From: Legionella londiniensis
GTDB taxonomy: Bacteria; Pseudomonadota; Gammaproteobacteria; Legionellales; Legionellaceae
Direction of reading: 5' to 3'
DNA: 64,000 bases
Assembly: GCF_001467825.1 (NCBI RefSeq)
Contig: NZ_LNYK01000016.1
Location: 258,097 to 322,096, forward strand
The position numbers were made by a program, and so were the translations under genes. Each line of letters opens with the position of its first letter. Within the stretch, counting starts at the first letter, position 1. Below the pieces are notes generated by a model. That model did no database searches. It had not been told where the DNA came from and saw nothing but the letters and a program-made list of their open reading frames with translations. Positions 2,759-39,478 of the stretch are shown here, piece after piece.

Positions 2759-3356
2759 GATATAATGCCTCCGGCACAATAAAGAGCAGGCTTAAATGAC
2801 CCAGCTTTTCTATATCCAGGGTCAGCCTTATGGCAATGGGCAGGGGCTCATCGTTCTGATTCTTTTGAATGCCTTCATGCCATTCTGACAAGACTTGCCG
2901 GCTTTGGTTTAAATAAGAAAATGAGCAATTTGCAAGATTATCAAGCAGAATCTTATCTTCAAATAGATTACGGTTTGGCATATCCAAATGTATCCAACCG
3001 CGCCTTATGAGTTGCTTACCCTGGCAAAGGTAGGCAATGCGCTGAAGCGTGCTGCGTTTGTCTTTGCCATCTGGATTGGCCAGGCCATCACGGGTAAACT
3101 CCATATAATTAGAATGGCCGACAAAAGCCGGAATACGTTGCAGGCCATTCCCGAGCACAAAACGATCAATCATCTGTTCCGAATCACGTTCAATGATTGT
3201 CAAGGTGAGTTGCAAGGCATTAATACGGGAAGCTGCCTCGCTCAGCCGCTCTCTGGTATTGAATGCGTGATACATAGCTGAACCCGTAATGGCAGCTAAA
3301 ATAGCAAATACCGCAAGCGCAATCAGGATTTCTATTAAGGTGTAGCCTTGTTTCAT
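2748..3356 (-). CDS. lspJ: Type II secretion minor pseudopilin GspJ/LspJ
   Basis: 202-residue minor pseudopilin. The N-terminus shows a canonical prepilin peptidase site: MKQG, cleavage, then YTLIE with glutamate at +5, followed by a hydrophobic helix (ILIALAVFAILAAITGSAM). The rest matches GspJ in size and in the LTLTIIERDSEQMIDR segment. GspI, GspJ and GspK form the tip complex that starts pseudopilus assembly. Its start overlaps the stop of lspI (ATGA at 3353-3356) and its end overlaps lspK, so the block is translationally coupled. Confidence 0.94.
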   Translation of the reverse strand: MKQGYTLIEILIALAVFAILAAITGSAMYHAFNTRERLSEAASRINALQLTLTIIERDSEQMIDRFVLGNGLQRIPAFVGHSNYMEFTRDGLANPDGKDKRSTLQRIAYLCQGKQLIRRGWIHLDMPNRNLFEDKILLDNLANCSFSYLNQSRQVLSEWHEGIQKNQNDEPLPIAIRLTLDIEKLGHLSLLFIVPEALYHAS

Positions 3357-3718
3357 TGAACATACCTGAAGGCAAGAAGCGGGTATCCGAAGGGACCGGA
3401 CTGGTTTTTGCTGACGGTAATTTCTATTTTTTGTACTCTATTTATTTCTGTGGGGCTTAGTTTCACCCGCCAATACAAGCGCTCGCCAAGCATGGTTGTG
3501 ACTTCTGTTATCTCTTGTCCTGGAACCACCTGCAATAAGCCAAGTTGAACCATACTGACTCCCTGCTTGGCAACCCAGTGGCTCAGCGTTTTGTCTTTAA
3601 GGCGGCGGGCATAAGAAACATCCTGTGAGGTAACTTTTAACAGCGCTGTCAAGGCAATGGCTATCACTGCCAAGGCTAAAAGCACTTCAATCAGCGTAAA
3701 CGCTTTTTTATTGATCAT
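3353..3718 (-). CDS. lspI: Type II secretion minor pseudopilin GspI/LspI
   Basis: 121-residue minor pseudopilin. The leader MINKKA is followed by FTLIE, with glutamate at +5 and a hydrophobic helix (VLLALAVIAIALTALL). The segment ARRLKDKTLSHWVAKQ is typical of GspI. The residue at -1 of the prepilin cleavage site is alanine, not the usual glycine. Prepilin peptidases tolerate Ala but generally process it less well, so this may be a slow substrate. Both ends overlap neighbours by four bases (ATGA), which supports coupled translation with lspH and lspJ. Confidence 0.94.
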   Translation of the reverse strand: MINKKAFTLIEVLLALAVIAIALTALLKVTSQDVSYARRLKDKTLSHWVAKQGVSMVQLGLLQVVPGQEITEVTTMLGERLYWRVKLSPTEINRVQKIEITVSKNQSGPFGYPLLAFRYVQ

Positions 3719-4197
3719 AATTTTTTTGCTGGCTGCAATTCGACCTTGCCATTGTGAGAGCCTGTTACGATTATAACCGCTTCCCTATCCTTACCGCGAA
3801 AAAAAAGTTTAAAAGGAGTGATATCTCCTGAGGAATTAATAATAATTTCTGCTCCTCTTTGCGCTTGACTCTCTCTTTCAAGGTTGATGACTGCATCTTC
3901 TGGCAAATTTTGCGGGCGAAAAATGCGCTGCCCGGATAATGCCTGCCAACCTTGAGAGGGGATGAACCTCAAAAGCTGATAGGTATTTTTGTTGAAGCGG
4001 ATGCCCAGCGTGCCTGACTCCAAAATGGCTTGCTGTTTTGCAAGCTCGATATAGTTTGCAAACTGTTCTGCGCTCGCAACAATTCGTCTTTTCCCGCCAA
4101 AGTCGCCGAAGGCCAGCAATGCAAAGCTTAACGTAATTGCAATAATAACCAATACGACCAGTATTTCAAGCAGACTAAAACCATCTTTATTTTGCAT
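3715..4197 (-). CDS. lspH: Type II secretion minor pseudopilin GspH/LspH
   Basis: GspH-type minor pseudopilin that joins the tip complex to the GspG shaft. The open frame extends up to 4278, but the start at 4197 is preferred (160 residues): it gives MQNKDG before the cleavage site and FSLLE after it, with glutamate at +5 and a hydrophobic helix (ILVVLVIIAITLSFALLAF). Upstream starts would put 33 residues before the cleavage site, which prepilins do not normally have. It overlaps the end of lspG by 11 bases and the start of lspI by four. Confidence 0.92.
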   Translation of the reverse strand: MQNKDGFSLLEILVVLVIIAITLSFALLAFGDFGGKRRIVASAEQFANYIELAKQQAILESGTLGIRFNKNTYQLLRFIPSQGWQALSGQRIFRPQNLPEDAVINLERESQAQRGAEIIINSSGDITPFKLFFRGKDREAVIIVTGSHNGKVELQPAKKL

Positions 4198-8186: not shown

Positions 8187-10049
8187 ATGGTGAGTAATCC
8201 GCAAACCATGGGATTTCAAACTGAAGTCAAACGAATGCTTGAGCTTGTCGTACATTCCTTATACAGCAATAAAGAAATTTTTTTGCGTGAATTGATTTCC
8301 AATGCATCTGACGCGTTGGATAAGCTTCGTTTTCTGGCTCTTTCAAAAAGCGAGCTGTACGAGGGAGATTCTGACCTCAAAATTTCGGTCGAATTTAACG
8401 AAAAGCTTAAAACCATCACCATTACCGATAACGGTATCGGCATGAGCCGTGATGAAGCTGTTGAAAATCTCGGGACCATTGCCAAGTCAGGCACGAAAGA
8501 GTTCATCAGCCATCTTTCCGGGGAAGACAGTAAAGATTCAAAATTAATCGGCCAGTTTGGAGTTGGCTTTTATTCCGCGTTCATTGTAGCAGACAAAGTA
8601 ACGGTCAAAAGCCGCAGGGCCGGGTTAAGTGCAGAGGAAGGAATTGTATGGGAATCCACAGGCGAGGGCGAATTCACAATTGGCAAAGAAGCCCGTAAAA
8701 AACGCGGAACAGAAATTATCTTACATCTAAAAAAAGAAGCGGAAGAGTTTTTAAGCCATTGGCGGTTGCGCAATATCATCAATAAATATTCTGATCATAT
8801 CTGCTGGCCAATTGTCATGAAAAAAGCATCCTCCGAAGAAAAAGAAGCCCAGGAGTTTGAAACCGTTAATAAGGCTACCGCATTATGGACATTACAAAAG
8901 TCTGAGATAAGCGATGAAGAATACAAAGAGCTTTATAAACACATCTCTCATGATTATCAGGATCCCATGATCTGGTCTCATAATCATGTAGAAGGAAAGC
9001 AGGATTATATCAGCCTGTTATACATTCCGAACCATGCTCCTTATGATTTATGGCAACATGAAGTCAAACATGGGTTAAAACTTTATGTAAAGCGGGTTTT
9101 TATTATGGATGATGCCTCGCAGTTTCTGCCGCGTTACTTAAGGTTTGTCAAGGGCATTGTAGATGCCAGCGATTTACCTTTAAATATTTCGCGAGAAATC
9201 TTGCAGGATAATAAACAAGTTGACAGCATTCGCGCCGCTTGCACAAAACGCGTATTATCCATGCTTGAGAAACTGAGCAAAGAAGACAGGGAAAAATATC
9301 AGCATTTTTGGGATGAATTTGGTTTGGTGATGAAAGAAGGGCCAATCGAAGATCACGCTAATCGCGAAAGTATCGCAAAATTGCTTCGTTTCGCAACGAC
9401 TGCCAAAGATTCAGAAAAGCAGTCTGTATCGCTCATGGAATATATTGAGCGCATGAAAGAAGGTCAGGATAAAATTTATTACATCACTGCTTCCAGCTAC
9501 AATGCGGCAAAATATAGCCCGCATCTTGAAATCTTTAAGAAAAAAGGCATTGAAGTATTGCTGTTAAGCGACCGTGTTGATGAATGGCTGGTGAACTATT
9601 TAAGCGAATTTGAAGGGAAAAAACTCCAATCCATCAGCAAGGGCAAAATTGATCTGGATGATAAAAAAGAAGTTGAGGCGCAGGAAAAAAATCTCGCCCC
9701 GCTGTTAAAACGGATTAAAGACGTGTTGGGTGAGCGTGTTAAGGATGTACAGGTTACGAACCGCCTGACAGACTCTCCAGCCTGCGTTGTGGCAGATGAA
9801 CAGGATATGGGACTTGAAATGCAGCGCATCCTCCAGGCAGCAGGGCAGAAATTACCTGAAAGCAAACCCATATTCGAAATTAACCCAGAACATGCATTAA
9901 TAAAACGATTGCATGTTTTTGAGGATAATGAGCATTTTGCACAATGGGTTGTCGTATTATTTGAACAAGCCGTATTGGCTGAAGGAGGACAACTTGACAA
10001 TCCGGCTGATTTTGTCAATCGGGTTAATCAATTATTGATAGGATCGTGA
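8187..10049 (+). CDS. htpG: Molecular chaperone HtpG (Hsp90)
   Basis: 620-residue bacterial Hsp90, an ATP-driven homodimeric cytosolic chaperone. The GHKL ATP-binding domain is at the N-terminus with [25 protein letters not shown] and [11 protein letters not shown]. The middle domain carries the catalytic-loop arginine in [11 protein letters not shown], and the C-terminal dimerisation domain ends near residue 620. A good ribosome site (ACAGGAG) precedes the ATG by nine bases. It is monocistronic and ends in a strong terminator shared with the convergent fis gene. Confidence 0.98.
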
Positions 10050-20867: not shown

Positions 20868-23800
20868 TCATCCGCCATTTTGCATTTCGAGCGCAGCCAG
20901 CTTTTCTTCAATAGCATCTTCACGCCGCAAACGCTCTGAACGGTCCATAAAGAAGGCAAACCGGCCTGTTGACACTTTGGATGCGATAAGCTGTATACCT
21001 AAGGCAATGCCCAGGGTAAACACGGCAAGAGCAATGTTTGCAATCAAGGGCTTCCATGAATCATGTTTGCACATGATATCATCCTTGCTGTGCAGATGTA
21101 ACCTGAATTCTTTTTGAAAAGCAGTCATTTGCTCTTTGCTCGGCAAATCGTCCGAATGGGCAGTTACAAAACCATCAACCCGCGTTTTAAGTGATTCTGC
21201 GTGTTCATGCACAATTTTTTGGTCGTCTTCTTTCAGAGTAGACCCATACCTATCGAGCTCTTGTATTTTGCCATAAAGTGCCTCTATGGCTTCGGCATAT
21301 GCCAAATGGTCGCCTTGCTTTCCCTTAAAAAGGCGTAAAATTTCTTGAGCAGGCATTGGCGATTCAGCCGCTACTTGCTCATCCTCGTAATTGGCGGCCA
21401 CTTTTTTGGCTAAATCTGTAAGTCCCAAGGCAATCCGGTTTAACAGGGATTGCAAGTTGAACCCGATGAATTTGGACTTATTCTCCTCAATATAATCCAA
21501 TATTTCTTTACTGCTATTGCTTTCAGAATAATGCTGAAGTTTTTGTTTTAACTCTGAAATAAAGCTTTCCCGCTCGCTTTTGTCGCCAGCAAAAAACGTA
21601 TCTTTCACACGGTATTTATCATTTCTATTTTGGATGTAATCATCGAGTTCTTGAGATAATTTAGTGACCAGTGCTTCTCGTTCTTTAACACGCTCACCTA
21701 ATTGCTTATTGATTAACGCTTTTTTCTCAAGAGACTCAGTGAGCTTCACTTTATTTTCTAAAATTTCATCTATTTTTTGAGCTTGTTCTTTCAATGGTTC
21801 ATCTTTGGTAATTTCCTGTTTCAACCTTTGCAGCAATTCTTCACCAGGTAATTGGCTGAGGAACCGTTGTCTTTCCTCAAGTATTTGTTGATTCTTTTCA
21901 AAAATGGCTTTTGTTTCATCAAAAGCAATTTCATCAACAGCTTGCAAACTGCCGGCAACTTGGGAGGAATACTGCCCGAGCTCTTCCTTAATTTTGTTGT
22001 TTATCCTGGATTGCAAACCAGTCAGCAGTTTCTCGGCAGTTTGCAGCATTTGTTCATAATGATCTTTATTTTTAAGCTTGGCTATTTTTTCTGCTAACTT
22101 GGTAAGATCCTCATAATCGGATTGCAACCCTCTAATTTCATTAAGGAAGTTGACAAGGGACGAGATAAGCTCGCTTGGGCTACCGGAAAGTTCATTGGTT
22201 TTTTGATTTAAAGTTTCAAGTTTCTCTAATACGGGCTTTACTGCTTCGAGCACTTCAACCTCAGCGTTTATAGCAGACGCATTTTCATCATATTCTTTTC
22301 TCAATTTTTTTAATTCTTGTTTCTTCTTTAAATTGGATTCATATATTTCGACTGGTTTTTGCAAGTCTTGCAGCTTGCTTTTCATTTTATCAAGCATTTT
22401 GGAAATTTTTAAAAACGTCCGATTGGTTTTTTCCCAAATTTGATACCCTAGTAATTGGGTCTCATAAACATTGAGCTTTAACTTATAATCCTTATCGCCA
22501 CGTTTAGGCGGTAGCGGTTTTTCTATCTCCTTAGTAGTTTCGTAATTAATGAACAAGTTATTAACAAAATATAAGGCGTCACTAGCGCCTTTAACAGAAA
22601 GCAGCGCACCTTCAGCGAACAGTTGTTCAGGTTCTTTTTTTCTGTAAGCGAATTCTTTTATCTCGGATTCAATTTGTTTGAACAGGCCATGAACTTCGCT
22701 TGCGATGAGAGGACAAAAGTTCCAATCCTGAGCTTGATCAATTTCCGTCAAGGTTGTATCGATCTGCTTATTCTTTTCTATTATGGTTGATAATTCCTGT
22801 TTTTTATCGTCTATAAACCGTCCTATCATTTCCGCATTGCAGGATTCCAAAAGTTCTCTCTGTTTGGCTTTTTCAAGGGAGGATTGCAATTCTGCTGTCC
22901 TCAGCTCCAGAGTTTGAGTTGCTGACTCTATCTCTTTCTCACAATCACTTACGGCAGCTTGATAAGCTTTTTGGATGGTTTCTAAAGCAGTATTATCCGC
23001 GTTTTGCAGGATTTCAGAGCAAATGGATTCTTTAACTTTAAACTCATTCAGCGACTTTTTATGCTCAATTAATTGTCGCTGTTGCTCAAGCAGTTGCTGA
23101 ATTTGCTCTTCAATTTCTTTAGAAGATGACTTGATTGCAAAGTTTTCTGTGAGTTTCAGAATGTTTTGCTGAAGCTCTTGGATAGGCCCGATGTTTTTCC
23201 GGATTTCTTCTTCCAGAAAGCTTTTGATAGTATCTTGACGCAATCTCGTTACTTCTTCCCGTTTTTCCAGAAGTTTCTTTTTTGATTGTTGAAGTTCTTC
23301 CATTTTTTTTGTGTTTGCAGCCTCTAATGTCTTGCGGACTTCGACTGCTTTAAAATTGCTCGAATCTTGAATCACAATGGCAGCAGGGAGAGGATAGTTT
23401 AGATCCAATTCGCCATCTAGATTAATTTGATGCTCCGCGCAGAACTGAGAGATCTTATTTTCTTTATAATCACGCAACCTTTGTTGAAGCTTAAGAATTC
23501 TTTTATCGATAGCTTCCACCTGGCTCTCAAGCGATTGATCCAGTTTATTAATATCACCCAATTTTTCTTCAAAAGAATTATCTTGAACTGTTTGGATCAA
23601 AATTAAATGGCAAGCCTCAATGAACAGTTTTTCTTCTTCGCTTATTATTGTTTCTTTTTTAATCAGATCATTGATCAGTCTGTTTTTACTCAATTCATGT
23701 TTGACATGCTGGCTTTCAGGATAATCCTGATAATATTTACCCATGACTTCAGCCAAGAATTCGCTGATTTTAGGCAGAAAACTTTGAAAATATGCATTTG

Positions 23801-24653
23801 CATCGATCGTCTTATCTTCTTTTTTCTCCTCTTTATATACCAGCCGGTATTTAAAACCGCCTGTATGCTCAATCTTTTTAATGGGAATGCCTGCAGTAAG
23901 TTTCGCTACAAATGAGCTGCTTAAGTCAGTTGTGATTGCGTCTGGATTTAAAAATGGCAGTAAATCCTGCAGGGTAGGGGGCAAATCGCTTAGTTTTTCA
24001 AAAATTTCTTTAATGAACCCATAGGTCTCTTGATGAGTGATTTTTAAAGGGGGATGGTTGCCAAAAAACAATCCAGGCAAATCCTTTTGAATTTTCTCAA
24101 TTAAAACTTGTTCTTTAATATTTTCATTGTCGCTATCATATAAATCATCGAGATCGAGCGATAATTTATCAAAGCAATCCAGCAAATCTTTTAACAGATT
24201 TTGATCGCCGCTCATACGTGCCAGGGAGCCAATCGAGGAATCATTGGCAATCTGATTACAAAGCAACACTTTTAATTGTTTAATATACGCTTCTTTGGCT
24301 TCCAAACCGCTCAAAGACTCTGATTGCAAGCACTGCTTTGTAATTTCTGGAAATTGCTGGTTTAAATACAAGCTGACCATTTGTCTGAAAAAGCCAATTT
24401 CATTCAGCGCAGCAATCAACTCTTTCTTTTTGCCAAGCAGCGTTGCTTTCTGGATTAAACCTGGTTGGCAACCATTGTCAAAATAATAAAGTATATCTTG
24501 ACTTAAAATTGTAATGATTTTATTGATGGTATTGATTTGTTTTTGAGCATTGATTTCATCAGATGAATTTCCGAACTTTGCTTTTTCTAAACGCTTCTTA
24601 ATAGCGAAAAAAAACTGACCAATTGCGGTGGATTCAAAGCTTGGATACCCCAT
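20868..24653 (-). CDS. Large coiled-coil protein with C-terminal membrane anchor; candidate effector
   Basis: 1261 residues. About residues 1-370 look globular and are unrecognised; ~375-1150 are almost continuous coiled coil rich in Glu, Lys, Gln and Leu; one hydrophobic segment (ANIALAVFTLGIALGIQLIA, residues ~1203-1222) follows, then a ~35-residue basic/acidic tail. There is no signal peptide. Length, coiled coil and a tail anchor without export signal are typical of Legionella Dot/Icm effectors that sit on the host vacuole membrane, but no known effector is recognised. AGGATG lies 10 bases before the ATG. A possible PmrA box and -10 lie 40-75 bases upstream. It could also be an ordinary cell-envelope tether. 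Confidence 0.8.
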   Translation of the reverse strand: MGYPSFESTAIGQFFFAIKKRLEKAKFGNSSDEINAQKQINTINKIITILSQDILYYFDNGCQPGLIQKATLLGKKKELIAALNEIGFFRQMVSLYLNQQFPEITKQCLQSESLSGLEAKEAYIKQLKVLLCNQIANDSSIGSLARMSGDQNLLKDLLDCFDKLSLDLDDLYDSDNENIKEQVLIEKIQKDLPGLFFGNHPPLKITHQETYGFIKEIFEKLSDLPPTLQDLLPFLNPDAITTDLSSSFVAKLTAGIPIKKIEHTGGFKYRLVYKEEKKEDKTIDANAYFQSFLPKISEFLAEVMGKYYQDYPESQHVKHELSKNRLINDLIKKETIISEEEKLFIEACHLILIQTVQDNSFEEKLGDINKLDQSLESQVEAIDKRILKLQQRLRDYKENKISQFCAEHQINLDGELDLNYPLPAAIVIQDSSNFKAVEVRKTLEAANTKKMEELQQSKKKLLEKREEVTRLRQDTIKSFLEEEIRKNIGPIQELQQNILKLTENFAIKSSSKEIEEQIQQLLEQQRQLIEHKKSLNEFKVKESICSEILQNADNTALETIQKAYQAAVSDCEKEIESATQTLELRTAELQSSLEKAKQRELLESCNAEMIGRFIDDKKQELSTIIEKNKQIDTTLTEIDQAQDWNFCPLIASEVHGLFKQIESEIKEFAYRKKEPEQLFAEGALLSVKGASDALYFVNNLFINYETTKEIEKPLPPKRGDKDYKLKLNVYETQLLGYQIWEKTNRTFLKISKMLDKMKSKLQDLQKPVEIYESNLKKKQELKKLRKEYDENASAINAEVEVLEAVKPVLEKLETLNQKTNELSGSPSELISSLVNFLNEIRGLQSDYEDLTKLAEKIAKLKNKDHYEQMLQTAEKLLTGLQSRINNKIKEELGQYSSQVAGSLQAVDEIAFDETKAIFEKNQQILEERQRFLSQLPGEELLQRLKQEITKDEPLKEQAQKIDEILENKVKLTESLEKKALINKQLGERVKEREALVTKLSQELDDYIQNRNDKYRVKDTFFAGDKSERESFISELKQKLQHYSESNSSKEILDYIEENKSKFIGFNLQSLLNRIALGLTDLAKKVAANYEDEQVAAESPMPAQEILRLFKGKQGDHLAYAEAIEALYGKIQELDRYGSTLKEDDQKIVHEHAESLKTRVDGFVTAHSDDLPSKEQMTAFQKEFRLHLHSKDDIMCKHDSWKPLIANIALAVFTLGIALGIQLIASKVSTGRFAFFMDRSERLRREDAIEEKLAALEMQNGG

Positions 24654-24780: not shown

Positions 24781-25272
24781 TTAAGTCTGATTATTGTGAT
24801 AATCAGACTTAGTGGGGTGCGGTAAATGAGTGTGTTCTGTTGTTGTTTTATTTTCTTTATTTATATTCTTTATATTATGGTCTACTGTTGTAGACGTTAA
24901 AAGTCTATGGTTGTGGACGTTTGAGTCTACGGTTGTAGACGTTTGTTCTTCTTCAAGACAATCAGTTTCTATTATTTTTTCGGGCTTCATCAAATATCTT
25001 TTACCATTCAATTTGACTCTTTTTAACTCAATGTGTTTTTCAAAAAAAGATAAAGCCTTATATATTACTGCTCGCTTGTATCCTGTCCGCTGACATAAAG
25101 ATTCTTCGCCAAGATAACAATTTTTATTTTTATTCCAGAATTGGAAAATGGTTTCATAAACATCGAGATAAGCAAGGGTTATTCCTGGAAGGTGGCGAAT
25201 ATAACGTGGAATTAGGTAAAAAGTGTCTTGATAGTGTTTGCTATCAGTATTGCTAGTGTTATAATTTCCCAT
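24781..25272 (-). CDS. Winged-helix protein resembling a plasmid/phage replication initiator
   Basis: 163 residues. Residues ~20-100 form a winged-helix-like domain (TLAYLDVYETIFQFWNKN, then EESLCQRTGYKRAVIYKALSFFEKH) of the type found in plasmid and phage replication proteins. The C-terminal 55 residues are low complexity (Thr, His, Asn) and contain two TSTTVD copies, which are the translation of three palindromic DNA repeats at 24880-24940. Rep proteins whose origin repeats lie inside the gene are known (for example RepA_N plasmids). The last nine codons also form a 12-4-12 palindrome. GGAG-type AAGGAGATAATTGC precedes the ATG. Alternatives are an island transcription factor or a remnant of a larger replicon. 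Confidence 0.6.
   Translation of the reverse strand: MGNYNTSNTDSKHYQDTFYLIPRYIRHLPGITLAYLDVYETIFQFWNKNKNCYLGEESLCQRTGYKRAVIYKALSFFEKHIELKRVKLNGKRYLMKPEKIIETDCLEEEQTSTTVDSNVHNHRLLTSTTVDHNIKNINKENKTTTEHTHLPHPTKSDYHNNQT
24783..24810. repeat. Perfect 12-4-12 palindrome at the end of the winged-helix gene
   Basis: AAGTCTGATTAT and ATAATCAGACTT surround TGTG. It covers the last codons and stop of the winged-helix gene. There is no T-run on either strand, so it is not a standard terminator. With the nearby iteron-like repeats it may belong to an origin or recombination site. Confidence 0.7.
24880..24940. repeat. Three iteron-like palindromic repeats inside a coding region
   Basis: Copies are at 24880-24895, 24903-24918 and 24925-24940, each GTCTAY-NGTT-GTRGAC; the first and third are perfect 6-4-6 palindromes. 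They recur every 22-23 bases, two helical turns, placing all on the same face of DNA. They encode the TSTTVD/VHNHRL repeat of the winged-helix protein. Spacing and number fit binding sites for that protein. Confidence 0.8.
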
Positions 25273-27617: not shown

Positions 27618-27639
27618 TTCTTTGGTTTGCTCTTTATCA

Positions 27640-27661
27640 GGGCGGCAGCAACCGCCCTTTT
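27640..27661 (+). terminator. Rho-independent terminator of the carbonic anhydrase gene
   Basis: GGGCGG, a six-base loop CAGCAA, CCGCCC and TTTT, starting 23 bases after the stop. Confidence 0.85.
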
Positions 27662-27838: not shown

Positions 27839-30800
27839 ATGTATAACTTAGAGAATACTATCAAAAGCGTACAAAACGCCGTTTTAAATGATGTTAAGTC
27901 AAAATTAGAAGATTCCTGGTTGCGGGCAAATCGATCCAACATTGAAAAAGAAGTGAATGAAAAAGTCAAAGAACAGCAAAAAATATATGACGAGCAATAT
28001 AAACAAGATCAGGAAGAATATCGTCAAAAGCTTCAGGAGTGGCAAAGTTCTATTCCACAGCACTCATCGTTAAAGCCAAATCCGCCTTTGAAAGCTACCG
28101 CTCATGCTTTTCAGTTCGAACGTGAGATTCAAAACAAATATACAGAACAATTCAAGAGCCTGTGGGAAAAAGATCTAAAATCCATTTTTGAAACACAATT
28201 GAAACAATTGAATGCAGAATCTTTTATTGGAGCATTGCTGAAACGGCATCCCTGGCTTGATCTTGGCTACGCAAGCGAAGGCCAGTTACCATTTATTTTT
28301 TTAGAACACTATTTGAAACACCAGTTAATTTCACTCATTGAAAACCCTCACATCAAATCCTGGGGGGAGTTACAGATAAGCCATTTTACCAAACCGAATT
28401 TTTCATGGCGTGACATTGAAGAGGGGGTATTTCAAAACCTTATCGAAGGTTATCCATTCCATGATGTTGATGATAATTATATCAGTCGATATATTGGCTG
28501 TTCTTCTTACCCGCAATTTTTGTCTCAGACGAACCTTGCGGGGAGTAGGCCAACCCACATTGACTTGATTCGCTTTCTTTACTCTCAAGACAGTTCAGGC
28601 ATGGTTGCCAAAGAACTCAAGAGCCAGTCACGCAAAGGTAACATTTACTGCACAAAATATGCTCCCTCCCACTATACCAAATTAGCCGATTTTGATCCCG
28701 CGCAATGGGAGCATTACCAATCACTGCTTGTTAACGTAGGTTCAGAGCAAAATCCCTTGTGGGTTCTTTTACATAAGACAAGCTCAAATAATTGGACAGC
28801 CTATGTACCGAATGATAAGCAAAATTATGCGTCATTTTTTGAAAAAGTTCCGGGAACAGTTAATATCCACCCCGTTGACTATCAGTTAAACGCTAAAAAC
28901 GATGATGATTCTCTATCTAAAGAAAATCAGTGGCATGCGGTGCTGCTGGGAAGAGTATTCCCCTGGTGCTTTTTGAAGAGCATCAATAAACCCGAATTAG
29001 AAAAATATCGCCACGATGTTCCTGCTTCCCTCTTATGGGAGAATGTAATTGACCAGATGATTTCACATACTTATTGGGGCTCTTCCAAGCAAAAAATTCA
29101 TTCTGCTTTTGTTCACCGCGCTCCTTTTAGCAAATTTGATTTGCAATCATGTTATGCACAAAGCTGGCGTTTAGAAAATCAGGGTTTCCTCTTTGGAGAC
29201 GGGCGTTCTGAGTTTGAAAAAAATATCCGATATATGCATATGATTGAATCATTTGAAACACATATATTTTCTATATCGGAAGACAGCAAAACATTCACTT
29301 ACCAGCCTACTGAAGCCGATGCCACACTGCAGCATCAGGCATATAAAACCATTTATCACTCACCTGTAGAACGTCTGGTGATGGCCAATCCTGTCTATAC
29401 TCATGGTTTTGTTAAAGATTTGGCAACTTACGATATCAATTTAAAAACAGTACGCCCCATTAACCCACAAAATTTCCAGCAAAACAAAGACAACTTTACC
29501 TACCCAATGCACGCTGCCGCCCGCAACCGGTTTCTGCAAAGTTTTGCCCCTGATTTATTAGCTTCCGCCAAGAACAGTATTGAAGGTCGTCAGGCATTAT
29601 GGGCTTCTGTTGGAAAAGAAATGATTAGTTTCTTCCAGCAAGAGCCGATCTTGGATCTTGATTTATACAATCAGGTTAGAAAACCACTGAACGAATGGAA
29701 ACAAGAATACTGCGATCATGAACAGCATAGCGGTTTGTCTGGCAAAGCCTGGTCCTATGCGCAAATTGCGGAAATGGGCAAGGATGGTTTGGATGCGCTA
29801 TTTACCCAATTAAATGCACTATTCCCAACAAGCTGGAAGCCTCAATATAAAGAGCCCGCCCCGAACCTCAATGCAACTTTTGATCTTGCCGGCAGCTTAA
29901 CTGATTCTGCCAGTGATTATATTAATCACCTGGCTTCTAAAATAGAAGATTTTGATAAAAGACAATATTTCTATACAAAAGATTACCGCACGCGATGCAT
30001 GCCGCTCTTTAAGTCCTTATCGTTAGTTTTTCCAGAAACGCTCGACAAACAAAATATCGAGGCCATCGGCAGATTGCTGAAAGCAGTCAATCAGCGTAAA
30101 GAGGATTTCCAGGAAGAAACGCCCGAAGTCGTTTTGTATAACCTCCCTAATAATAAGCAGGGTGAAGCTTTTATTGAGCAAATGGAAGAATTGCTGCAGA
30201 AAAACCCTAACTGGCAACTGCAAATCCGTATTCCCGTTTGGGACCGGGAAGCTTATATAGAAAATGAAGAGCAAAGAAAGCTAAAAGATCGCTATCGCCT
30301 CATCCAAAATAAAATTCAAGATAATCAGCGTAAAGTCAATCACCAAAAGCTCGCAAAGCAAACTGAGAATATTTACAACTATGCACGCAACGACCTTAAG
30401 GCAGAATTGATTTTATCAGCCACTATGCACGCCAATGAGCAGCCATGGGATGAACAAGGCATGACTTATCCTCTGGTTTCCCAGGCGCCAGGTATCCAGC
30501 AGCAAATGCAGCAAGAGCAGCAGCAGGAAATGCAACAAGAGGAACAACAACAGGAAGAACAGCAGCAGGAACAGGAACAGGAGCAGCAGATTGAAGCTTA
30601 TGGCGGCAATGAAGGTCTGCTGATTACGCGCGGCAATATTAATGAGAATGAAACCTGTAAGCAATATTGGCAAAATCTTGCGGGAGAAATCAAAGACTTA
30701 TCAGGCTTTAGCGGACAATTAAGCGACCTGTTCTCGCAATGGGTTGGCAGTGAGCGTGATGCAAGGCATGTCATTGAAAAGATTGAGCCCGAAGCCGTAA

Positions 30801-33800
30801 AAAAAATGATGGACTACGCGCCGCAGTTTCGCCTGGGTATTGCCAAAGACAACCTGCCTCCTGGTTTTTATCTCGCTTATTCAAGGGAGTCCAAACAAGG
30901 TTTAATCTTATGTTTTAGTGCAAAACGTGAAATCGATGATCTACGAAAACGTGCTGATTTAACCTTAAAACAGCGTAACCCCTTTACCGTTGAACTCCAT
31001 CCGCGAAAAAAAGCCATTGAATTTCGCGGTGATTTTCGCCAATTCACACCCCTTGATAGCAAAGGCGATTTAACCATCAAAGAAACTTTGTGGAAATATT
31101 TGGCAACGGAAGATAAGGACGCACAAAGACTCAACCGTGCCAAACAAGGCATAGACCTTCTTAGAGAAGACGAGGAAACGATCTCGAGCGAAGACGCATC
31201 AGTTACCCTGCAGCGCTATGAAGCCTATAAGGAAATCAAGGTTCCCGGAAATGATGAAGATTGCCTGAACGCATTGAAGGCATGGGCAGAAGGCAATAAA
31301 GCATCCAAGGAACTTTGCTCTATTCTCTTCAATAAAAATCGACTCACCGATAAAAACTTAAAAGCATTCGGCCAGTTATTTAATTTTTATGACGTTGATT
31401 TTACTCAACAATCCAATAAAAAAACAAACGGCACTGAACACTGGTTGTTCATTGCTGACCAAATGCTTGAAACTTTTGGTGAGAAGCATTTCGCTATCTG
31501 GAAAGAACGGCTGCTTGATCCCTCAGAAAACTGGACTGAATTATTAGAAAAAGAAGAAGTGGATGCCATGGCCTTGAGCATGCAAAGCCTGAAAGGCCAT
31601 AAAACTGAATCAGAAATCTGGTGGCGGCTCGTTGATGCTCACGGCAAGGCCACAGGCCACATGTCCTATGCCAAGTTATGGCATGCCTATCAAACCCTTC
31701 TCACTTATATTGAACAAAAAAAATTAACGCTCAATGAAGATGCGATTTCCAACTATCTGCAAGCCACATCCAACTTTAATGGTTTGGTCTTTTGCGACCG
31801 CCTGCATCGGGTGTTAAAAAATGCTGAAAACCAATTGGATCGCGACCTCGTTCAACAGCATATTCTGGATAATATTGACAAGATTGACTGGCGGCATAAT
31901 GGCTACTATTACGCGAGCCGCTATGAATCCTATCCTTATTGGAAGGAAGGATTGCAACTTGAAAAGCTCACGAGTACCAATAAGTCCCTTGCAGCTACTT
32001 ATATGCCCCGCTGGGATGAAGGTGAAATTAAGGATCTCAAAACCCATGCGCTTCGCTTTGCCAGTGAGCGCATGCAGCTTCGGTATAACGAGTTTGACCA
32101 GTATCAAAAATTGATTGAGGTTGCAAAACTTGCTGAAAACCCTGAATTGTTACGCCTTTTTACAGCGTCGCTTGCCATAGGCGTGAATAATCTCAATCAT
32201 TTTAAAGAGCCAAGCACCCTCACTTCACTCGTGAACACTTTAAGTGATACGAAAGAAGTTAACTCTGATTTGATCGTCTGGATCAATAAACAACTGTTAC
32301 TGGACAAAGAGCTACTGCCCGATACGTTACACTTGCGTTTTGAGGATATTGTCCATTTCGCTAAAGCCTTACAACAAAACAAGATTGGTTTGGGCGATCT
32401 TCAACTTGATGATGATGAACTTGAATTTATCAATGCCTGCGGCCGTGCCCTGCAATGCCATCAGGACAAGCCGCAAGACAAGCTTGCCCGCTTGCTAAAA
32501 ATTGATAAACCAGGAAAGATCCTGGATCACGGATTGTTTACTGCCTATCCTTGGCTTCTGGAAGATTATGAAAAAAATAGCCAAAATTGGCAAGAAATCG
32601 ACCCGCTTGCCGGCGTTAAACGTACGCTCCAGATTAAGCTTTTTCTTGCACAACTGGAATCGATCGATTTTGCAAAATCAACCTACCTGCCCTCTCGTGA
32701 AGAACTGAGAGAAGCATTCAGCGCGATTGCCAGCAAATCACAACGCGTGGAAGCAAGAAACACCAGACAAGAGATAGTGAATCAATGGATTGAAAAAGGA
32801 TGCGCCATCACTGTCCAGGACTCCCCTTTCCGCAAACTCGAGAACAAAGAACCCAAAGAAACCCTGGAGTTTCTCGAAAAACGCTTTTTATCGACCTTTA
32901 AAGAGCATAATAAAACTTTAATGCAGCAATTGCTCGGCCATGTTGCTGTTAAAGATGAAGGCAATGAAGAAGCGGTTAAAAAACAACTGGAATCATTTCA
33001 GCGTTTGATGATCGGGCTTGACAATAAAACGCATTATAACGATTTAGGCCAGGTTCTTGGCTTACTGCTGCAAAAAGCCAAAAGCGCCAAACCGGAATGT
33101 ATTTATTCTTTACCGCAGCTGACTTCCTGGCTCGAGAAACTGGTAAACCAAGAGGAAAGGGCCTTCGCGCACTATCCCGTTAACCTTTTGGAAGAACTGT
33201 TAAGCCATGAATTGAATAACCCCAAGTCTTCTCTTTTAAATTCCAACCTTCATCATTTAAACGAGAATGGAGATGCGGAAAAACAGAAGTTAGTTCAAAC
33301 AATTACCTATAATGATCTGCCGAATCATTATAAACCCGTCTTGGTGCGATGGGCTTTAAAAAGCGAAAAAATTGAAACAAAAGTAATTCATTATGTAGTC
33401 AGGCAACTGGGAAGCCTGGATGAAGATGAATCCATCAGTTCAAAATGGCCAGAAGCCGTTTGCCGGTTAATTAATAATTATCTTGATTTATCGATGCCTC
33501 CGGAATTAGGTGTTCTAAAGGCAGTTGTTGAACAACCTGATTTACTTCCAAACTATCTCAAGCCTGTATGGCAAGAAAGTCAAATCAAATTAATCAATTT
33601 ATTAATTGATGAAAGTACGCGTCATAACAGTTTTGACAAAGATGAGGCTATTTCACTTCTTACAGCCTTAAGGGGCGAAGGAAGAAATGCATATGCCATT
33701 CAAATTATCCTGGTGCAGGCCATAAATCATTTATCATTCAATGAAAATGCCAAAGTCTTTTTAGACATTTCTAATGAGTTACAAACATGGTCTAAAGACG

Positions 33801-36800
33801 AAGCAGAACAGCTGGCGCTTTACATGGCGGACGAGCCAAGACCCTCTGAAAAACTGCTTTGCGACTTGCTTAAACGTTGCCCAACTAAATCAGCAAGCGA
33901 TTTAATTCATGAATTTGAAAGTGTTGAACAGGCTAAAGACAAAAATGGCTCATCCAAGCGTATTTACAGCATTGACGAGAAAGACCGTGAGGATTTAGCC
34001 CGCGTATTAAAAGGCCTGAAACTCAAAGGCAGAGGATACATCAGCATTGATGAGCAAAAAAAGCTGCTCAATCTCTTGTATTACACCAATGATTACAGCG
34101 ATGTGCAGCAACTGCACCGCATGAGAATGGAAGATTTAAAGAAAACCCTGGAACAGGGCATTCAGGAAATCAAAAACAGCCAAAATATCGATAAAGATTA
34201 CGCCTCTGCCCGGGTATTAGCCTGCATGAGGGAGATTTTGCTGCGCAAATCAGGCAAATTCGCGAACCACACCCAAATGCTTGATTTGCTTTATGCAGCC
34301 ACACACAACGATGAAAGCCTTATTCATCAACTGCGTACTGGCCAGGGTAAAAGTATCATCACTATCATGCGCTCTTCTTTCCTCGCATTAACAGGTCATG
34401 TGGTAGATGTGTTCAGCGCCAAAGCGAGCTTGTCAGAACGAGATCACGAAGAATTCGCACCCGTACTTGATGCCATGGGAATCCCTCATGCGTACATCAG
34501 TGAAGGCTCCCCTGCCGCCAAATACAAAACAAAACCTTCTAACTCTGATATTGGCGCAATCAATTATGCGACCATTGGCAACTTCAGCCTGTTCCACTCC
34601 CGCCATATCTGGGATGGAAAAGATAAGATTGATCTGGATAGAGAAAAACGCGTTGCCTTTATCGATGAATGCGATCATGTCCTTAAAGATGAGCAAACCC
34701 AGTTCAATTTTTCTGATTCAGAAGAAGGCAATAGCGATAATAAAATCTATAACCTTGATGAATGGGTGTACCGCATTACCTATGATTTTTATCTAAAGCA
34801 TAAAGAAAACGAACAATATTTCTTTCCCAATAAAAGCGGTATTTTAACCGTTACTGAAAATCCAGGCCTTAAAGCGCTCTGTGATGCCCTCTATCGTGAA
34901 CTTAAAAACAGCCCCAAAGGCTCAACTTTTTGGGGTAAATACATCAGCCCCGCTGCTGAACAAAACAATGAAGATGCAATCAGGCTGCGTAATGGCAAAT
35001 TAAAAGACTTATTGACCGCTGCCCACATCGCGCATCATATGGAACCTGATGACAAATTCTGTGTGCGCCCCGACTTAAAACAGGTCAGCGGCATGAAAAT
35101 CACAACTCGCGCTGCGAAAGTGATGATTAACAATCAGGTCATCGAAGGCTCAACCTATAGTGATTTGGTGCAGCAGTTTTTACATGTACGCTTAAATCAT
35201 GACGCCGTAGAAAAAGGGCAAAAACCGGATTTCTTTGTTGATCCGGTCACCCAAATTGCCCTCTCGCAAAACGCGCAGTATTTGCTGAAAAAATATTATA
35301 AAAAACTCGAAGGCTGCACAGGAACCGCCGGTAATGAGGTTGATTTAGAATTCTATGAAAAAGAGTATGGCATCAGAAATGTCATTAAAATGCCAACTCA
35401 CGAAAAAATCAGAACAGAATTTCTGCCTGCAGAATTCGCTGAATCATTTAATGATCAGATTGATAAACTGGTAAAACAAATTCTTGCTAACCAGGACCAG
35501 CCAATCTTAATTACCTGTAAAGACGATAAAGCCGTAAAACGCATTGCAGCCGCCATTCAAAAAAAATTAAAAGAGACAGAAGAATTTAAAGGCACGCTTA
35601 CCGTAGACACTAATGACAGCGGTAAATCTGAAAGTCAGGTTGTGCCTCTCGCCGGTAAAATAGGTGCAGTCACCATCAGTTCACGCCTGGGACGTGGTAC
35701 GGATATTAAGCCTGAATCTACAAAGGGATTGATGGTACTGCGAACCTATCCTGCTATCCCCCGGGTTGAGAAACAAGAGCGCGGCCGCCAGGGCCGAAAC
35801 GGCGCTTTGGGAACCTGTCAGGATATCATCAACTATGCAGAGGTTCTTAATGAGCATAAAGCTTTATATGAAAATCACCAAGAAAGGCTTTTACAGATTG
35901 AAAAAGAACAACAGCAGCATTTAACTAAAAAACTGGAAAAAAACAGCAAGCGCGGTTCTCAAAAATGGAAATGGTTAGAAAAATCAGAAGAAACGCAAAA
36001 TAAAATTGTCATTACCCGAGCTACCCAGCAGTTAAAACATGAGCTCAAGCAGGAGCAGGATAAATTTATCCGCCGCAAGGAAAATCTGCTTGCAGTACTT
36101 TCAGGCAATGTGATGGATGTGCTGCATCAAAACATGAAAAGTGAGGCTTTCGGGTATGAGCAAAGCCGCAAATCGCTAAAAACTCAATGGCTTGATGCGC
36201 GCAAGAAAATTGATGAAGCCTGGAACTCACGCCTCGCTGGCAAACAGTGCGACAGTGAAGAAGTTTATCAAGAATTTTTTGAAAAAGTGGAAAACATATG
36301 GGCTGGCCTCTCATTCAATCATCGTGAGCTTGACGGGCATTGCCTAACCAAATTACAGCAACAATCTAAAACAGAGAAAAAAGAGAAAAAAGTGATTCTG
36401 GAATCCGAGCATAGAATTGAATCACAACCCAAAAATATGGATGCGTTTATTCAATGCTATCAGGCATGGTTTGCAGAGGCTCAGAAAAAAAGAGAATACA
36501 AACTCAATGATGAGCAAAAAAATGTACTCTATGGTATTGAAACCAAAATCATCCCGGTGAATATTCCGAATATGGGGGATGTTGATGAAGGCATAGAAAA
36601 GATACGCATTGTCTCTTATCCCAAACACCATGAGCTCCTGTTCAAAATGTTGTTAGCTGCAAGCGGGAAAAGCGAGAATCCTGAAGCGTTATTTAATGGA
36701 TTAAGCGCCCTGATTAAAAAGCATGGTTCAATGCATCGCATGCCTTGCCAATCACTCGCTTATATGGTAGACAAATTAAGCGAACGCAGCGGGGATGAGG

Positions 36801-39478
36801 AGAAACTCCAGGAGTATATTGCTGTTTTTGAGAAATTCTTTGGGCACGAAAAGCTCAATGAAAAAATTTTCCCCAATGCCGAAACCATCACGCTCAATGG
36901 CAAGTTGCTATTCCTTGCTGTGAACACGATTACAACCCACCTGGTAGCTGATGGGAAAGGCTCAGCTTCTTTTGTTGAAAAACTGATAACCGTGATGCAT
37001 GAAGCGCGTTTCAGGGATCGCCTGGATGATACGAATCTATCAAGGCTCAATCAAATATTTGCTGATAACCATCATTCAACCGATGTGTTAACGCGTTACT
37101 TTGCTGACGCCAACACGGGAGATCTGGGTTATTTTATTAACAATATCTTGACGCTTGATGAAAGGATCGCAAAAGACCGTATCGCTCGGCTGCATCAATA
37201 CCTTAAAGAGCATCAAGAGAAGTTAAATCAAAAAGACTTGCGTCCCATGATGCGTCCTTTACTGGCTATTGTCCTGCTAAACAGCAAGGATTATTTGCCT
37301 GATTTGGCTATGCTCGCAAACCTTGAGCCGGTCCATCGCGGCCGCTTGCTGCATTTTATGGCTGCTCGTTTGCCTCTTGATGAGGATACTGTCAATGAGC
37401 TTTTGGAAAAAATTTCAACTCAGGAAGAAAGTCAAGAATTCATCGAAGATGTGATAAAACCATTAACCAGTTTGCCGCTTGAGACTTCTTTAGAGTATAT
37501 CAATAAGGAGCTTCAGGACATTGACAGCCAGCATGAATTTGGCGCGATGAAGAAAAGATTGCAAACGCTGCATGAGGCTGGTGATTACTTTAACCAGTAT
37601 GTGAAGCAAAAAAATATTACAGGAACTGAGAACCATCATATCCTGGCTGACTTATATGAAAAAATGCCTTGTGAAAAAGCAAAACGGTTTTTTGCTGTTG
37701 CTGCAAATCGCAATTACGTTCATGTACCAGCCGAAGATGCCATCGAGCTGGCTACTCAATTCAATAAAGAATCCGATATGAGTTATGCGCTGTTGAACTT
37801 CACTGCCCATGAAGTCACGGCATTAAAAAAACTGCTGGGAAGCCTTAATAAAAAAATTCAGCAGCTTGAGCCGGGCGACGAGCATAAAAAGATTTTATTC
37901 AATCAGGATGAAATTTCCACCATCAAGCAAAGGCTTGCTCAAATAAACACGGAAGAGGCCCAAAATTTCAGTAAAAAACTTGAAGAGAAAGATACCCGGG
38001 TTGCCGATCAGTTAGATGGTTATTTTGATTTATACGCTCATTTCAACTCTTGCGCAATGCATAGTAACATCACTGATAAAAAATCGTTACAAGCGTTATT
38101 CTTTAAACCCAACTCTCCTTCGGCTTTAGAATGGAAAGTTTTCTATGAAAAAGCAATAAATCATTCTCATCTCAAAGAAAAGAATATCAAAGCAATTGCG
38201 GCGCTTTTTGTTGAGAAGAAAATTTCTAATCAGGATTTGGCTAAATATTTTGAATATTTCAATGCGCTGAATCAATTAGATACCGCCAAAAGAAATTTTG
38301 CGGAGAGGATATTGCCTCCTGTAACTCAAGATACGCTGCCAGGCGAGGAAACCCTTCGTTTGTGGCTTGATGTTATACAAGCGCTCAAAGATTATAAGGG
38401 TAAGGTTACTGAAGATTTGCTCATGAACCTTTATGAACATGTTTGCAAGAATCAATTGGCTACATTCAGATCTAAACTGGTAAAACTTCAGGAAGAGTTA
38501 GAAACGGTAACACATGACGCGACTGAACTTGACCGCAATAATCAATATATGTCTTATTTTAAGGAATATGATAGCCCAAATCAGGAAAAGCGCGCCAAAA
38601 TCATGCAGTATCTGCATCATGGTTTGCTGGATTTGGGAGAGCAATTTAAGAAAACATGCTGGGATCATTTTAATAAGCTGGCCAATAGTTTACTAGAAAA
38701 GATTATCATTCCTGAAAGTTTGGGTGGCGCAAACAGTTCCTCCCGCGCAAAATTTAAAAAGTCGTTTCAGAATCTGATTGCCTTCACCCAGGAAATGGTT
38801 GGCATCAGCCGCCACCCCATGGAATATCGCGGTGATATTAAAGGTTCAAAAGAGGATGCGGGCATTTCTGGAAAATACGCCGCATATTTTGAGCAGCAGC
38901 GAAACCGCTACGCCAGTTTTTGGTGGACAAATCAAAGCCGGAAGTGGCAGGCAGAAAGTTTATTTTCTAACCTCAGCCTAATCGATGAGAAAAAGACAGA
39001 TAAAACGCAATTTTATAAAAGCGCCCTGGAGCAGATTTTGTGTACCCAAAATGACATCATGGAAAATGATAAAAATAATTACAATTTTAAGGGCTACAGC
39101 CGCCTAATGGACATTAGCATGCAAATGTTTGTCAAGTTGGCCAAAGACGGTTTGTCTCAGCCTGATATCAAGGAAGATATGGTTACGGTCTTAAACGATA
39201 TCCTTGAATCACAACTGGCCATGCATATCAAGTATTTGGCAGACTTTATGCCAGATACAAAATCTACCAATGGGTTTAAGAAGATATTGATGGAATATAA
39301 AGAGAAGATGGATAACAATTCAGGAAAACTTGATTCGCAAGAGTTGGCAGAGTTTGCGGATGGTCTGAAAAAGAACCGAAATTCCATCCCCTATCGCTTG
39401 CAATACCTGGCAAATAATCTTGAAGCCCTGATTGCCTTGCCAAAAGCAGGCGACAGCAGTCATGGGCTTAAGCGTTAA
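27839..39478 (+). CDS. Giant protein (3879 residues) with internal SecA-type ATPase motor
   Basis: One uninterrupted frame. Residues 1-880 and ~900-2100 are mostly helical and unrecognised, split by a Gln/Glu tract (887-917). Residues ~2085-2665 align in order with the SecA motor: QLRTGQGKS (Walker A, ~2164-2172), VVDVFSAKASLSERD, FIDECD (DEAD-like box, ~2276-2279), a ~215-residue stretch with VIEGSTYSDLVQQF like the SecA PPXD region, LEGCTGTAG (~2490-2498), SSRLGRGTDI and QERGRQGRNG (arginine finger, ~2646-2655). The last ~1200 residues are helical with no named domain. There is no signal peptide or membrane segment. Canonical SecA is ~900 residues, so this is not the housekeeping translocase. 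It may be an exported effector or a specialised protein remodeller. It is followed by a 63-residue gene. Confidence 0.85.
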   Translation: MYNLENTIKSVQNAVLNDVKSKLEDSWLRANRSNIEKEVNEKVKEQQKIYDEQYKQDQEEYRQKLQEWQSSIPQHSSLKPNPPLKATAHAFQFEREIQNKYTEQFKSLWEKDLKSIFETQLKQLNAESFIGALLKRHPWLDLGYASEGQLPFIFLEHYLKHQLISLIENPHIKSWGELQISHFTKPNFSWRDIEEGVFQNLIEGYPFHDVDDNYISRYIGCSSYPQFLSQTNLAGSRPTHIDLIRFLYSQDSSGMVAKELKSQSRKGNIYCTKYAPSHYTKLADFDPAQWEHYQSLLVNVGSEQNPLWVLLHKTSSNNWTAYVPNDKQNYASFFEKVPGTVNIHPVDYQLNAKNDDDSLSKENQWHAVLLGRVFPWCFLKSINKPELEKYRHDVPASLLWENVIDQMISHTYWGSSKQKIHSAFVHRAPFSKFDLQSCYAQSWRLENQGFLFGDGRSEFEKNIRYMHMIESFETHIFSISEDSKTFTYQPTEADATLQHQAYKTIYHSPVERLVMANPVYTHGFVKDLATYDINLKTVRPINPQNFQQNKDNFTYPMHAAARNRFLQSFAPDLLASAKNSIEGRQALWASVGKEMISFFQQEPILDLDLYNQVRKPLNEWKQEYCDHEQHSGLSGKAWSYAQIAEMGKDGLDALFTQLNALFPTSWKPQYKEPAPNLNATFDLAGSLTDSASDYINHLASKIEDFDKRQYFYTKDYRTRCMPLFKSLSLVFPETLDKQNIEAIGRLLKAVNQRKEDFQEETPEVVLYNLPNNKQGEAFIEQMEELLQKNPNWQLQIRIPVWDREAYIENEEQRKLKDRYRLIQNKIQDNQRKVNHQKLAKQTENIYNYARNDLKAELILSATMHANEQPWDEQGMTYPLVSQAPGIQQQMQQEQQQEMQQEEQQQEEQQQEQEQEQQIEAYGGNEGLLITRGNINENETCKQYWQNLAGEIKDLSGFSGQLSDLFSQWVGSERDARHVIEKIEPEAVKKMMDYAPQFRLGIAKDNLPPGFYLAYSRESKQGLILCFSAKREIDDLRKRADLTLKQRNPFTVELHPRKKAIEFRGDFRQFTPLDSKGDLTIKETLWKYLATEDKDAQRLNRAKQGIDLLREDEETISSEDASVTLQRYEAYKEIKVPGNDEDCLNALKAWAEGNKASKELCSILFNKNRLTDKNLKAFGQLFNFYDVDFTQQSNKKTNGTEHWLFIADQMLETFGEKHFAIWKERLLDPSENWTELLEKEEVDAMALSMQSLKGHKTESEIWWRLVDAHGKATGHMSYAKLWHAYQTLLTYIEQKKLTLNEDAISNYLQATSNFNGLVFCDRLHRVLKNAENQLDRDLVQQHILDNIDKIDWRHNGYYYASRYESYPYWKEGLQLEKLTSTNKSLAATYMPRWDEGEIKDLKTHALRFASERMQLRYNEFDQYQKLIEVAKLAENPELLRLFTASLAIGVNNLNHFKEPSTLTSLVNTLSDTKEVNSDLIVWINKQLLLDKELLPDTLHLRFEDIVHFAKALQQNKIGLGDLQLDDDELEFINACGRALQCHQDKPQDKLARLLKIDKPGKILDHGLFTAYPWLLEDYEKNSQNWQEIDPLAGVKRTLQIKLFLAQLESIDFAKSTYLPSREELREAFSAIASKSQRVEARNTRQEIVNQWIEKGCAITVQDSPFRKLENKEPKETLEFLEKRFLSTFKEHNKTLMQQLLGHVAVKDEGNEEAVKKQLESFQRLMIGLDNKTHYNDLGQVLGLLLQKAKSAKPECIYSLPQLTSWLEKLVNQEERAFAHYPVNLLEELLSHELNNPKSSLLNSNLHHLNENGDAEKQKLVQTITYNDLPNHYKPVLVRWALKSEKIETKVIHYVVRQLGSLDEDESISSKWPEAVCRLINNYLDLSMPPELGVLKAVVEQPDLLPNYLKPVWQESQIKLINLLIDESTRHNSFDKDEAISLLTALRGEGRNAYAIQIILVQAINHLSFNENAKVFLDISNELQTWSKDEAEQLALYMADEPRPSEKLLCDLLKRCPTKSASDLIHEFESVEQAKDKNGSSKRIYSIDEKDREDLARVLKGLKLKGRGYISIDEQKKLLNLLYYTNDYSDVQQLHRMRMEDLKKTLEQGIQEIKNSQNIDKDYASARVLACMREILLRKSGKFANHTQMLDLLYAATHNDESLIHQLRTGQGKSIITIMRSSFLALTGHVVDVFSAKASLSERDHEEFAPVLDAMGIPHAYISEGSPAAKYKTKPSNSDIGAINYATIGNFSLFHSRHIWDGKDKIDLDREKRVAFIDECDHVLKDEQTQFNFSDSEEGNSDNKIYNLDEWVYRITYDFYLKHKENEQYFFPNKSGILTVTENPGLKALCDALYRELKNSPKGSTFWGKYISPAAEQNNEDAIRLRNGKLKDLLTAAHIAHHMEPDDKFCVRPDLKQVSGMKITTRAAKVMINNQVIEGSTYSDLVQQFLHVRLNHDAVEKGQKPDFFVDPVTQIALSQNAQYLLKKYYKKLEGCTGTAGNEVDLEFYEKEYGIRNVIKMPTHEKIRTEFLPAEFAESFNDQIDKLVKQILANQDQPILITCKDDKAVKRIAAAIQKKLKETEEFKGTLTVDTNDSGKSESQVVPLAGKIGAVTISSRLGRGTDIKPESTKGLMVLRTYPAIPRVEKQERGRQGRNGALGTCQDIINYAEVLNEHKALYENHQERLLQIEKEQQQHLTKKLEKNSKRGSQKWKWLEKSEETQNKIVITRATQQLKHELKQEQDKFIRRKENLLAVLSGNVMDVLHQNMKSEAFGYEQSRKSLKTQWLDARKKIDEAWNSRLAGKQCDSEEVYQEFFEKVENIWAGLSFNHRELDGHCLTKLQQQSKTEKKEKKVILESEHRIESQPKNMDAFIQCYQAWFAEAQKKREYKLNDEQKNVLYGIETKIIPVNIPNMGDVDEGIEKIRIVSYPKHHELLFKMLLAASGKSENPEALFNGLSALIKKHGSMHRMPCQSLAYMVDKLSERSGDEEKLQEYIAVFEKFFGHEKLNEKIFPNAETITLNGKLLFLAVNTITTHLVADGKGSASFVEKLITVMHEARFRDRLDDTNLSRLNQIFADNHHSTDVLTRYFADANTGDLGYFINNILTLDERIAKDRIARLHQYLKEHQEKLNQKDLRPMMRPLLAIVLLNSKDYLPDLAMLANLEPVHRGRLLHFMAARLPLDEDTVNELLEKISTQEESQEFIEDVIKPLTSLPLETSLEYINKELQDIDSQHEFGAMKKRLQTLHEAGDYFNQYVKQKNITGTENHHILADLYEKMPCEKAKRFFAVAANRNYVHVPAEDAIELATQFNKESDMSYALLNFTAHEVTALKKLLGSLNKKIQQLEPGDEHKKILFNQDEISTIKQRLAQINTEEAQNFSKKLEEKDTRVADQLDGYFDLYAHFNSCAMHSNITDKKSLQALFFKPNSPSALEWKVFYEKAINHSHLKEKNIKAIAALFVEKKISNQDLAKYFEYFNALNQLDTAKRNFAERILPPVTQDTLPGEETLRLWLDVIQALKDYKGKVTEDLLMNLYEHVCKNQLATFRSKLVKLQEELETVTHDATELDRNNQYMSYFKEYDSPNQEKRAKIMQYLHHGLLDLGEQFKKTCWDHFNKLANSLLEKIIIPESLGGANSSSRAKFKKSFQNLIAFTQEMVGISRHPMEYRGDIKGSKEDAGISGKYAAYFEQQRNRYASFWWTNQSRKWQAESLFSNLSLIDEKKTDKTQFYKSALEQILCTQNDIMENDKNNYNFKGYSRLMDISMQMFVKLAKDGLSQPDIKEDMVTVLNDILESQLAMHIKYLADFMPDTKSTNGFKKILMEYKEKMDNNSGKLDSQELAEFADGLKKNRNSIPYRLQYLANNLEALIALPKAGDSSHGLKR
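30497..30589 (+). repeat. Gln/Glu low-complexity tract within the giant gene
   Basis: 31 codons, nearly all CAG/CAA/GAA/GAG with two ATG, encode a Q/E-rich run at residues 887-917. It separates the N-terminal region from the rest and probably forms a flexible or single-helix linker. Length variation by slippage is expected. Confidence 0.85.

Follow-up and report, generated by a model that had tools for sequence, protein, structure and literature searches.

SecA is the motor that drives proteins across SecY, and its clamp and two-helix elements grip the polypeptide. The proteins nearest by description to the one reported here are recorded only briefly. A table of eukaryote-to-Legionella gene transfers names Legionella fallonii lfa2470 a 'protein of unknown function [SecA DEAD-like]', giving no length, layout or function (PMC4256840), and another table (PMC5037449) has an entry for a Daphnia transcript whose domain is SecA DEAD-like. 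According to a passage of PMC3639933, the secA genes of Wolbachia wBol1 measure 4,488 and 11,829 nt and have homologues in insects, and a pair of Amoebophilus genes clusters with the eukaryotic ones; a passage of PMC3482391 proposes host-directed proteins with SecA-like domains in Amoebophilus, an amoeba symbiont, giving no layout. Here we describe a Legionella londiniensis gene for a giant protein of 3,879 amino acids (aa) with a SecA-type motor in its second half. The gene lies in the window, by which we mean the whole 64,000-nucleotide stretch analysed (contig NZ_LNYK01000016.1, C16 among the 34 contigs of the 2.4-Mb genome). We favour, with a probability of roughly 0.45, the reading that this protein is a member of a large giant family, known from Legionella and from other bacteria carrying a Dot/Icm gene, and is likely delivered into the host cell, where the motor would grip and pull host polypeptides.

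The giant shares with lfa2470 the genus and the SecA DEAD-like domain, and with wBol1_1092 (11,829 nt) and its insect homologues the SecA domain and a nearly equal length, the latter differing in being grouped with eukaryotic proteins in the PMC3639933 passage; these likenesses, and that to the Amoebophilus proteins, are by description. A full-text literature search, with most subscription papers outside its coverage, returned no account of what a Legionella giant with this layout does. An earlier, sequence-only reading of the locus knew of no characterised family; within the literature searched this holds for function, while lfa2470 and the Wolbachia and insect secA giants are kindred proteins already named.

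A SecA superfamily motor in a giant protein

The frame starts with ATG, contains no internal stop and carries, as the sequence-only reading had it, all the quoted SecA motifs in order, SERD among them (open reading frame and motif positions checked; Table 1). These include the ordered ATPase motifs of the SecA superfamily (TG-x-GKS, DExD, TGT, GRG-x-D and Q-x2-GR-x2-R) and a segment matching the EG-x3-SDGLHQ stretch of SecA. Pfam places SecA_DEAD (PF07517) at residues 2090-2500 (E 6.1e-21) and, at E <= 1, gives besides it just a sub-threshold SecA P-loop match, and a phmmer search of PDB sequences retrieved SecA2 of C. difficile (E 2e-16) in two blocks flanking the clamp region. Judged by motifs and profiles, the likeness to SecA is far beyond chance.

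The protein nevertheless differs from SecA and SecA2, with which it shares all ATPase motifs and a predicted fold whose alignment begins in the N-terminal lobe and reaches the two-helix region. It is about four times longer; three NCBIfam SecA models matched at 77.5, 70.8 and 65.6 bits, below their curated cut-offs of 862, 725 and 1493; and in a tree (unrooted, long-branched and built without a SecA2 row) a single branch with 100/100 support separates 36 giants from 8 housekeeping SecA proteins. Against a motor profile (A3), the 36 giants reached 273-823 bits, compared with 119-162 bits for nine housekeeping SecA sequences. The C-terminal zinc-type CxC...C[HC] tail, visible in the C-termini of 8 fetched housekeeping SecA proteins, is absent from the window protein and from 87/87 homologues; many SecA2 proteins lack such a tail. 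At the level of sequence comparison, a motor of the SecA superfamily is strongly supported, in a protein that is not a SecA equivalog by cut-off or tree.

Structure prediction covered residues 110-1300 and 2040-2990. Residues 26-791 of the motor model (predicted local distance difference test score 81.9) align to SecA 12-820, and the predicted fold includes the PPXD clamp insert and a scaffold/two-helix region beyond the RecA-like lobes; two consecutive helices would take the place of the SecA two-helix finger. In structure searches with this model, SecA rows stood above all helicase rows shown (ranks 1-35 in Foldseek, 1-28 in VIA). The profile search placed the motor with SecA and not with another helicase family, and Pfam, phmmer, predicted-fold searches and tree together bear out the SecA-type motor first proposed from the letters. 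As the core begins at about residue 2065 and the SecA-like fold runs to about 2830, some 1,050 residues follow the motor; the position in the second half agrees with the layout originally suggested (~2150 residues, the motor and ~1200 more), and the bounds are revised. When 28 proteins were aligned (P0001 and 27 homologues; P0005 and P0025 excluded beforehand), the most conserved blocks belonged to the motor (residues 2121-2200, mean 0.85-0.86), and conservation is uneven, with 0.49 in motor block 2321-2360 and 0.73 in non-motor block 961-1000. The modelled fold suggests that the giant may act as a translocase or unfoldase.

A separate housekeeping secA, whose absence would have spoken against a specialised role, is present in the genome (G000:C19, 577 aa, cut by the contig start, E 1.1e-135). 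A 715-aa frame at C16:352414 among the SecA_DEAD matches fell below the cut-off, is RecG by Pfam and was dropped. DUF3638 (PF12340), considered as an alternative family, had no match in the genome, and the control was equally silent, so this search is uninformative.

Distribution of the giants and co-occurrence with a Dot/Icm gene

A search with the window's motor gave 88 matches of 2,214-4,693 aa, the window protein included, and one with a paralogue's motor gave 603 (120 of 603 listed); homologue counts (n=87) exclude P0002, which is the database entry of the window protein itself. Alignments A2, A4 and A5 are without L063 (too short or no match), and A1 is without L026, L034, L036 and L037. 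The nearest named relatives by protein are L. cardiaca, L. jamestowniensis, L. erythra and L. dresdenensis, and the nearest by locus is Legionella sp. W10-070 (61%). The L. londiniensis genome itself encodes four more giants that carry this motor, of 3,590 aa (C10) and of 3,111, 3,051 and 1,865 aa (C14), the last two with GRSGRFG in place of GRQGRNG in motif VI.

Among 143 Legionellaceae genomes, the best A3 match was below 1e-55 in 112, between 1e-55 and 1e-38 in 24 (the range expected of housekeeping SecA from the bit scores) and weaker in 7, with a gap from 5.1e-60 to 1.6e-50; the latter two groups, 31 genomes, are without a clear giant. Among the matches listed (to 1e-103), most frames exceed 1,300 aa and three are shorter than 1,000 (764, 932 and 982). 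G100:C20 (~59-73 kb) holds a likely tandem duplication, two giant frames of 4,045 and 3,976 aa at a distance of about 12 kb from each other.

Of 369 genomes sampled evenly across the class, 10 carried giants (E <= 1e-50), four of them Legionellaceae and six from five other families with genomes of 1.0-3.0 Mb. DotH/IcmK was detected in 48 genomes, and giants occurred in 10/48 DotH-positive versus 0/321 DotH-negative genomes (Fisher p 5.7e-10; 2.2e-6 without Legionellaceae), both values being too small owing to kinship among the ten. The L. londiniensis genome has DotH/IcmK, one Dot/Icm component, at G000:C16:41659-42366 (E 6.8e-104). Since giants in this sample stand only beside a Dot/Icm gene, the protein is likely an injected one.

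A phylum sample of other genomes gave 0/397 at E <= 1e-52, a threshold that more divergent giants would escape and at which Wolbachia-type giants were not compared. Viral contigs held no relative, and a phage collection gave weak partial matches only (5 records). Nine plasmid records matched: in eight the match was weak and partial, to genes bearing a SecA or helicase annotation, and one, Legionella adelaidensis 'plasmid 9' (L066, NZ_LR134418.1), holds a 3,010-aa giant. As lptF, lptG, murJ and proC lie beside this giant, the record may be a piece of chromosome labelled as plasmid.

Regions flanking the motor

Residues 226-412 are predicted to adopt a CE-clan peptidase fold in common with the effector proteases OtDUB, SseL, SnCE1, SdeA DUB and NopD; no CE-clan match was found for this domain in PDB sequences or Pfam. 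The giants differ from these proteases at the catalytic columns, which were placed by motif: His at the HW-type column is present in 0/82 aligned giants, and the CE-like helix segment has a Cys in 6/82 and none in 76/82. This domain is likely a binding module. Outside the motor, the modelled regions are largely helical or weakly repeat-like. No counterpart of residues 110-880 was found among 5,796 candidate proteins of 0.55-1.75 times that length (0 at E <= 0.001). The Q/E-rich tract recurs at a similar distance in many homologues (uncounted), and a leucine-rich repeat (LRR) reading of residues 588-829 (29600..30325, + strand) was too weak to retain.

At the start of the C-terminal region, ~720-805 residues after Walker A, 11/87 homologues carry a J-domain-like HPD insert (P0003, P0006, P0010, P0011, P0012, P0014, P0019, P0023, P0029, P0030 and P0041); four of the 15 post-motor HPD matches were dropped for want of J-domain context (P0027, P0037, P0051 and P0060). 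Locus L026 (3851-15445) likewise has a J-domain-like HPD segment. The window protein has no HPD motif and so does not qualify as a J-domain co-chaperone.

Proposed host delivery and its alternatives

Delivery through Dot/Icm is likely, on the basis of the DotH co-occurrence and the effector-type predicted fold at the N-terminus. After delivery, the CE-clan-like domain would bind a ubiquitin-like or other host target, and the motor may unfold or thread the bound polypeptide with ATP, a step proposed because the clamp and two-helix parts are predicted present; relatives with a J-domain-like insert might recruit Hsp70 to the same work. In its most specific form, which we regard as doubtful, Legionella and other Dot/Icm bacteria would have turned SecA into an injected unfoldase in which a dead CE-clan domain reads a ubiquitin-like mark and the motor, in some relatives with captured Hsp70, pulls a host protein apart or through a membrane. 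p97/Cdc48 is an AAA+ hexamer whose motor is unrelated to SecA; the analogy is functional only, in that the giant is proposed to recognise a tagged protein and then pull it. If true, the giant would be a SecA-built counterpart of p97, a SecA motor working in the eukaryotic cytosol.

Several observations weigh against host delivery. The E-block is a C-terminal Dot/Icm translocation signal; the last 30 residues of the window protein contain one Glu (0 to 5 in homologues), and no C-terminal secretion signal was recognised in this tail. In the 369-genome sample, 38 DotH-positive genomes have no giant. Moreover, an intrabacterial protein dependent on Dot/Icm would yield the same co-occurrence. The suggestion that the protein is possibly exported to the host gains indirect backing from DotH and the N-terminal fold and none from a secretion signal.

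The alternative most deserving of respect, if unlikely, is accordingly an intrabacterial ATPase serving a secretion system: a SecA2-like accessory translocase or unfoldase, not itself exported, that might for example feed large substrates to such a system, Dot/Icm included. The predicted SecA/SecA2 fold of the motor and the unrecognised signal fit it; five giants in one genome and a mainly effector-type N-terminal fold suit a host-directed protein better, and the missing zinc-type C-terminus also speaks against it. Improbable, in our estimate, is a scaffold or giant adaptor with helical and LRR-like arms, whose ATPase would drive conformational change only, without polypeptide transport: the helical or weakly repeat-like character of much outside the motor and the lost CE-like catalytic residues agree with it, but the motor holds the most conserved blocks and the polypeptide-gripping elements of SecA are predicted present. 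We consider a role in inter-bacterial or anti-phage conflict very unlikely, since giants in the 369-genome sample are confined to DotH-positive genomes and matches in the phage collection are weak and partial, although a passage of PMC8195603 reports SecA-like domains in some giant actinobacterial toxins. A superfamily 2 nucleic-acid helicase merely resembling SecA was rejected as scarcely credible on the Foldseek and VIA rankings, the SecA alignment moreover covering PPXD and the region past NBD2.

Giants found in most sampled Legionellaceae genomes, up to several in each, which retain the SecA motifs within 2,200-4,700 residues and in the 369-genome sample always accompany a Dot/Icm gene, would give the SecA motor a second life beyond the Sec pathway, probably within host cells. 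Whether intracellular bacteria inject protein unfoldases driven by ATP becomes a testable question, and the SecA-domain giants of Wolbachia, insects and Amoebophilus, so far unexplained, gain a lead.

Features and genomic surroundings

Table 1. Features of the giant gene, its protein and its paralogues (window positions unless a locus is named).
Feature	Residues	Position	Strand	Remark
Whole gene, giant SecA-motor protein		27839..39478	+	3,879 aa
Predicted SecA-type translocase core	2065-2830	34031..36328	+	NBD1, PPXD, NBD2, scaffold/wing/two-helix region by aligned range
Walker A TGQGKS	2167-2172	34337..34354	+	loose pattern somewhere in 86/87 homologues
Walker B DECD	2276-2279	34664..34675	+	within FIDECD
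EGSTYSDLVQQ	2436-2446	35144..35176	+	matches SecA EG-x3-SDGLHQ segment
EGCTGTAG	2491-2498	35309..35332	+
GRGTDI	2618-2623	35690..35707	+
QERGRQGRNG	2646-2655	35774..35803	+	motif VI
Two consecutive predicted helices	2773-2827	36155..36319	+	putative place of SecA two-helix finger
C-terminal region	2831-3879	36329..39478	+	variable in homologues; modelled first part low confidence
Predicted CE-clan (Ulp1/YopJ-like) fold	226-412	28514..29074	+	catalytic positions not conserved
Block partly common to same-genome paralogous giants	~875-1380	30461..31978	+
Q/E-rich tract	880-919	30476..30595	+	78% Q+E; ~1,290 residues before Walker A
Terminator-like hairpin		27639..27658	+	3' of upstream carbonic anhydrase gene; 1 found vs shuffles mean 0.1
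Paralogous giants		L008 4825-15597; L009 5431-14766; L011 3173-12328; L010 6208-11805	-; +; +; +	3,590; 3,111; 3,051; 1,865 aa

The giant gene appears to form its own transcription unit. The upstream neighbour on the same strand is a carbonic anhydrase gene followed by a terminator-like hairpin, and the same scan found no sigma-70-like promoter. Downstream, the opposite strand carries a NUDIX gene together with genes whose domains are of the EngA/Der, BamB and histidyl-tRNA-synthetase types. Two frames near the giant, of 1,261 aa (20868-24653, - strand) and 163 aa (24781-25272, - strand), matched nothing in Pfam or NCBIfam at E <= 0.001; the longer could be another unrecognised host-directed protein. 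The window also holds an HtpG (Hsp90) gene (8187-10049, + strand) about 18 kb from the giant, an observation of proximity only.
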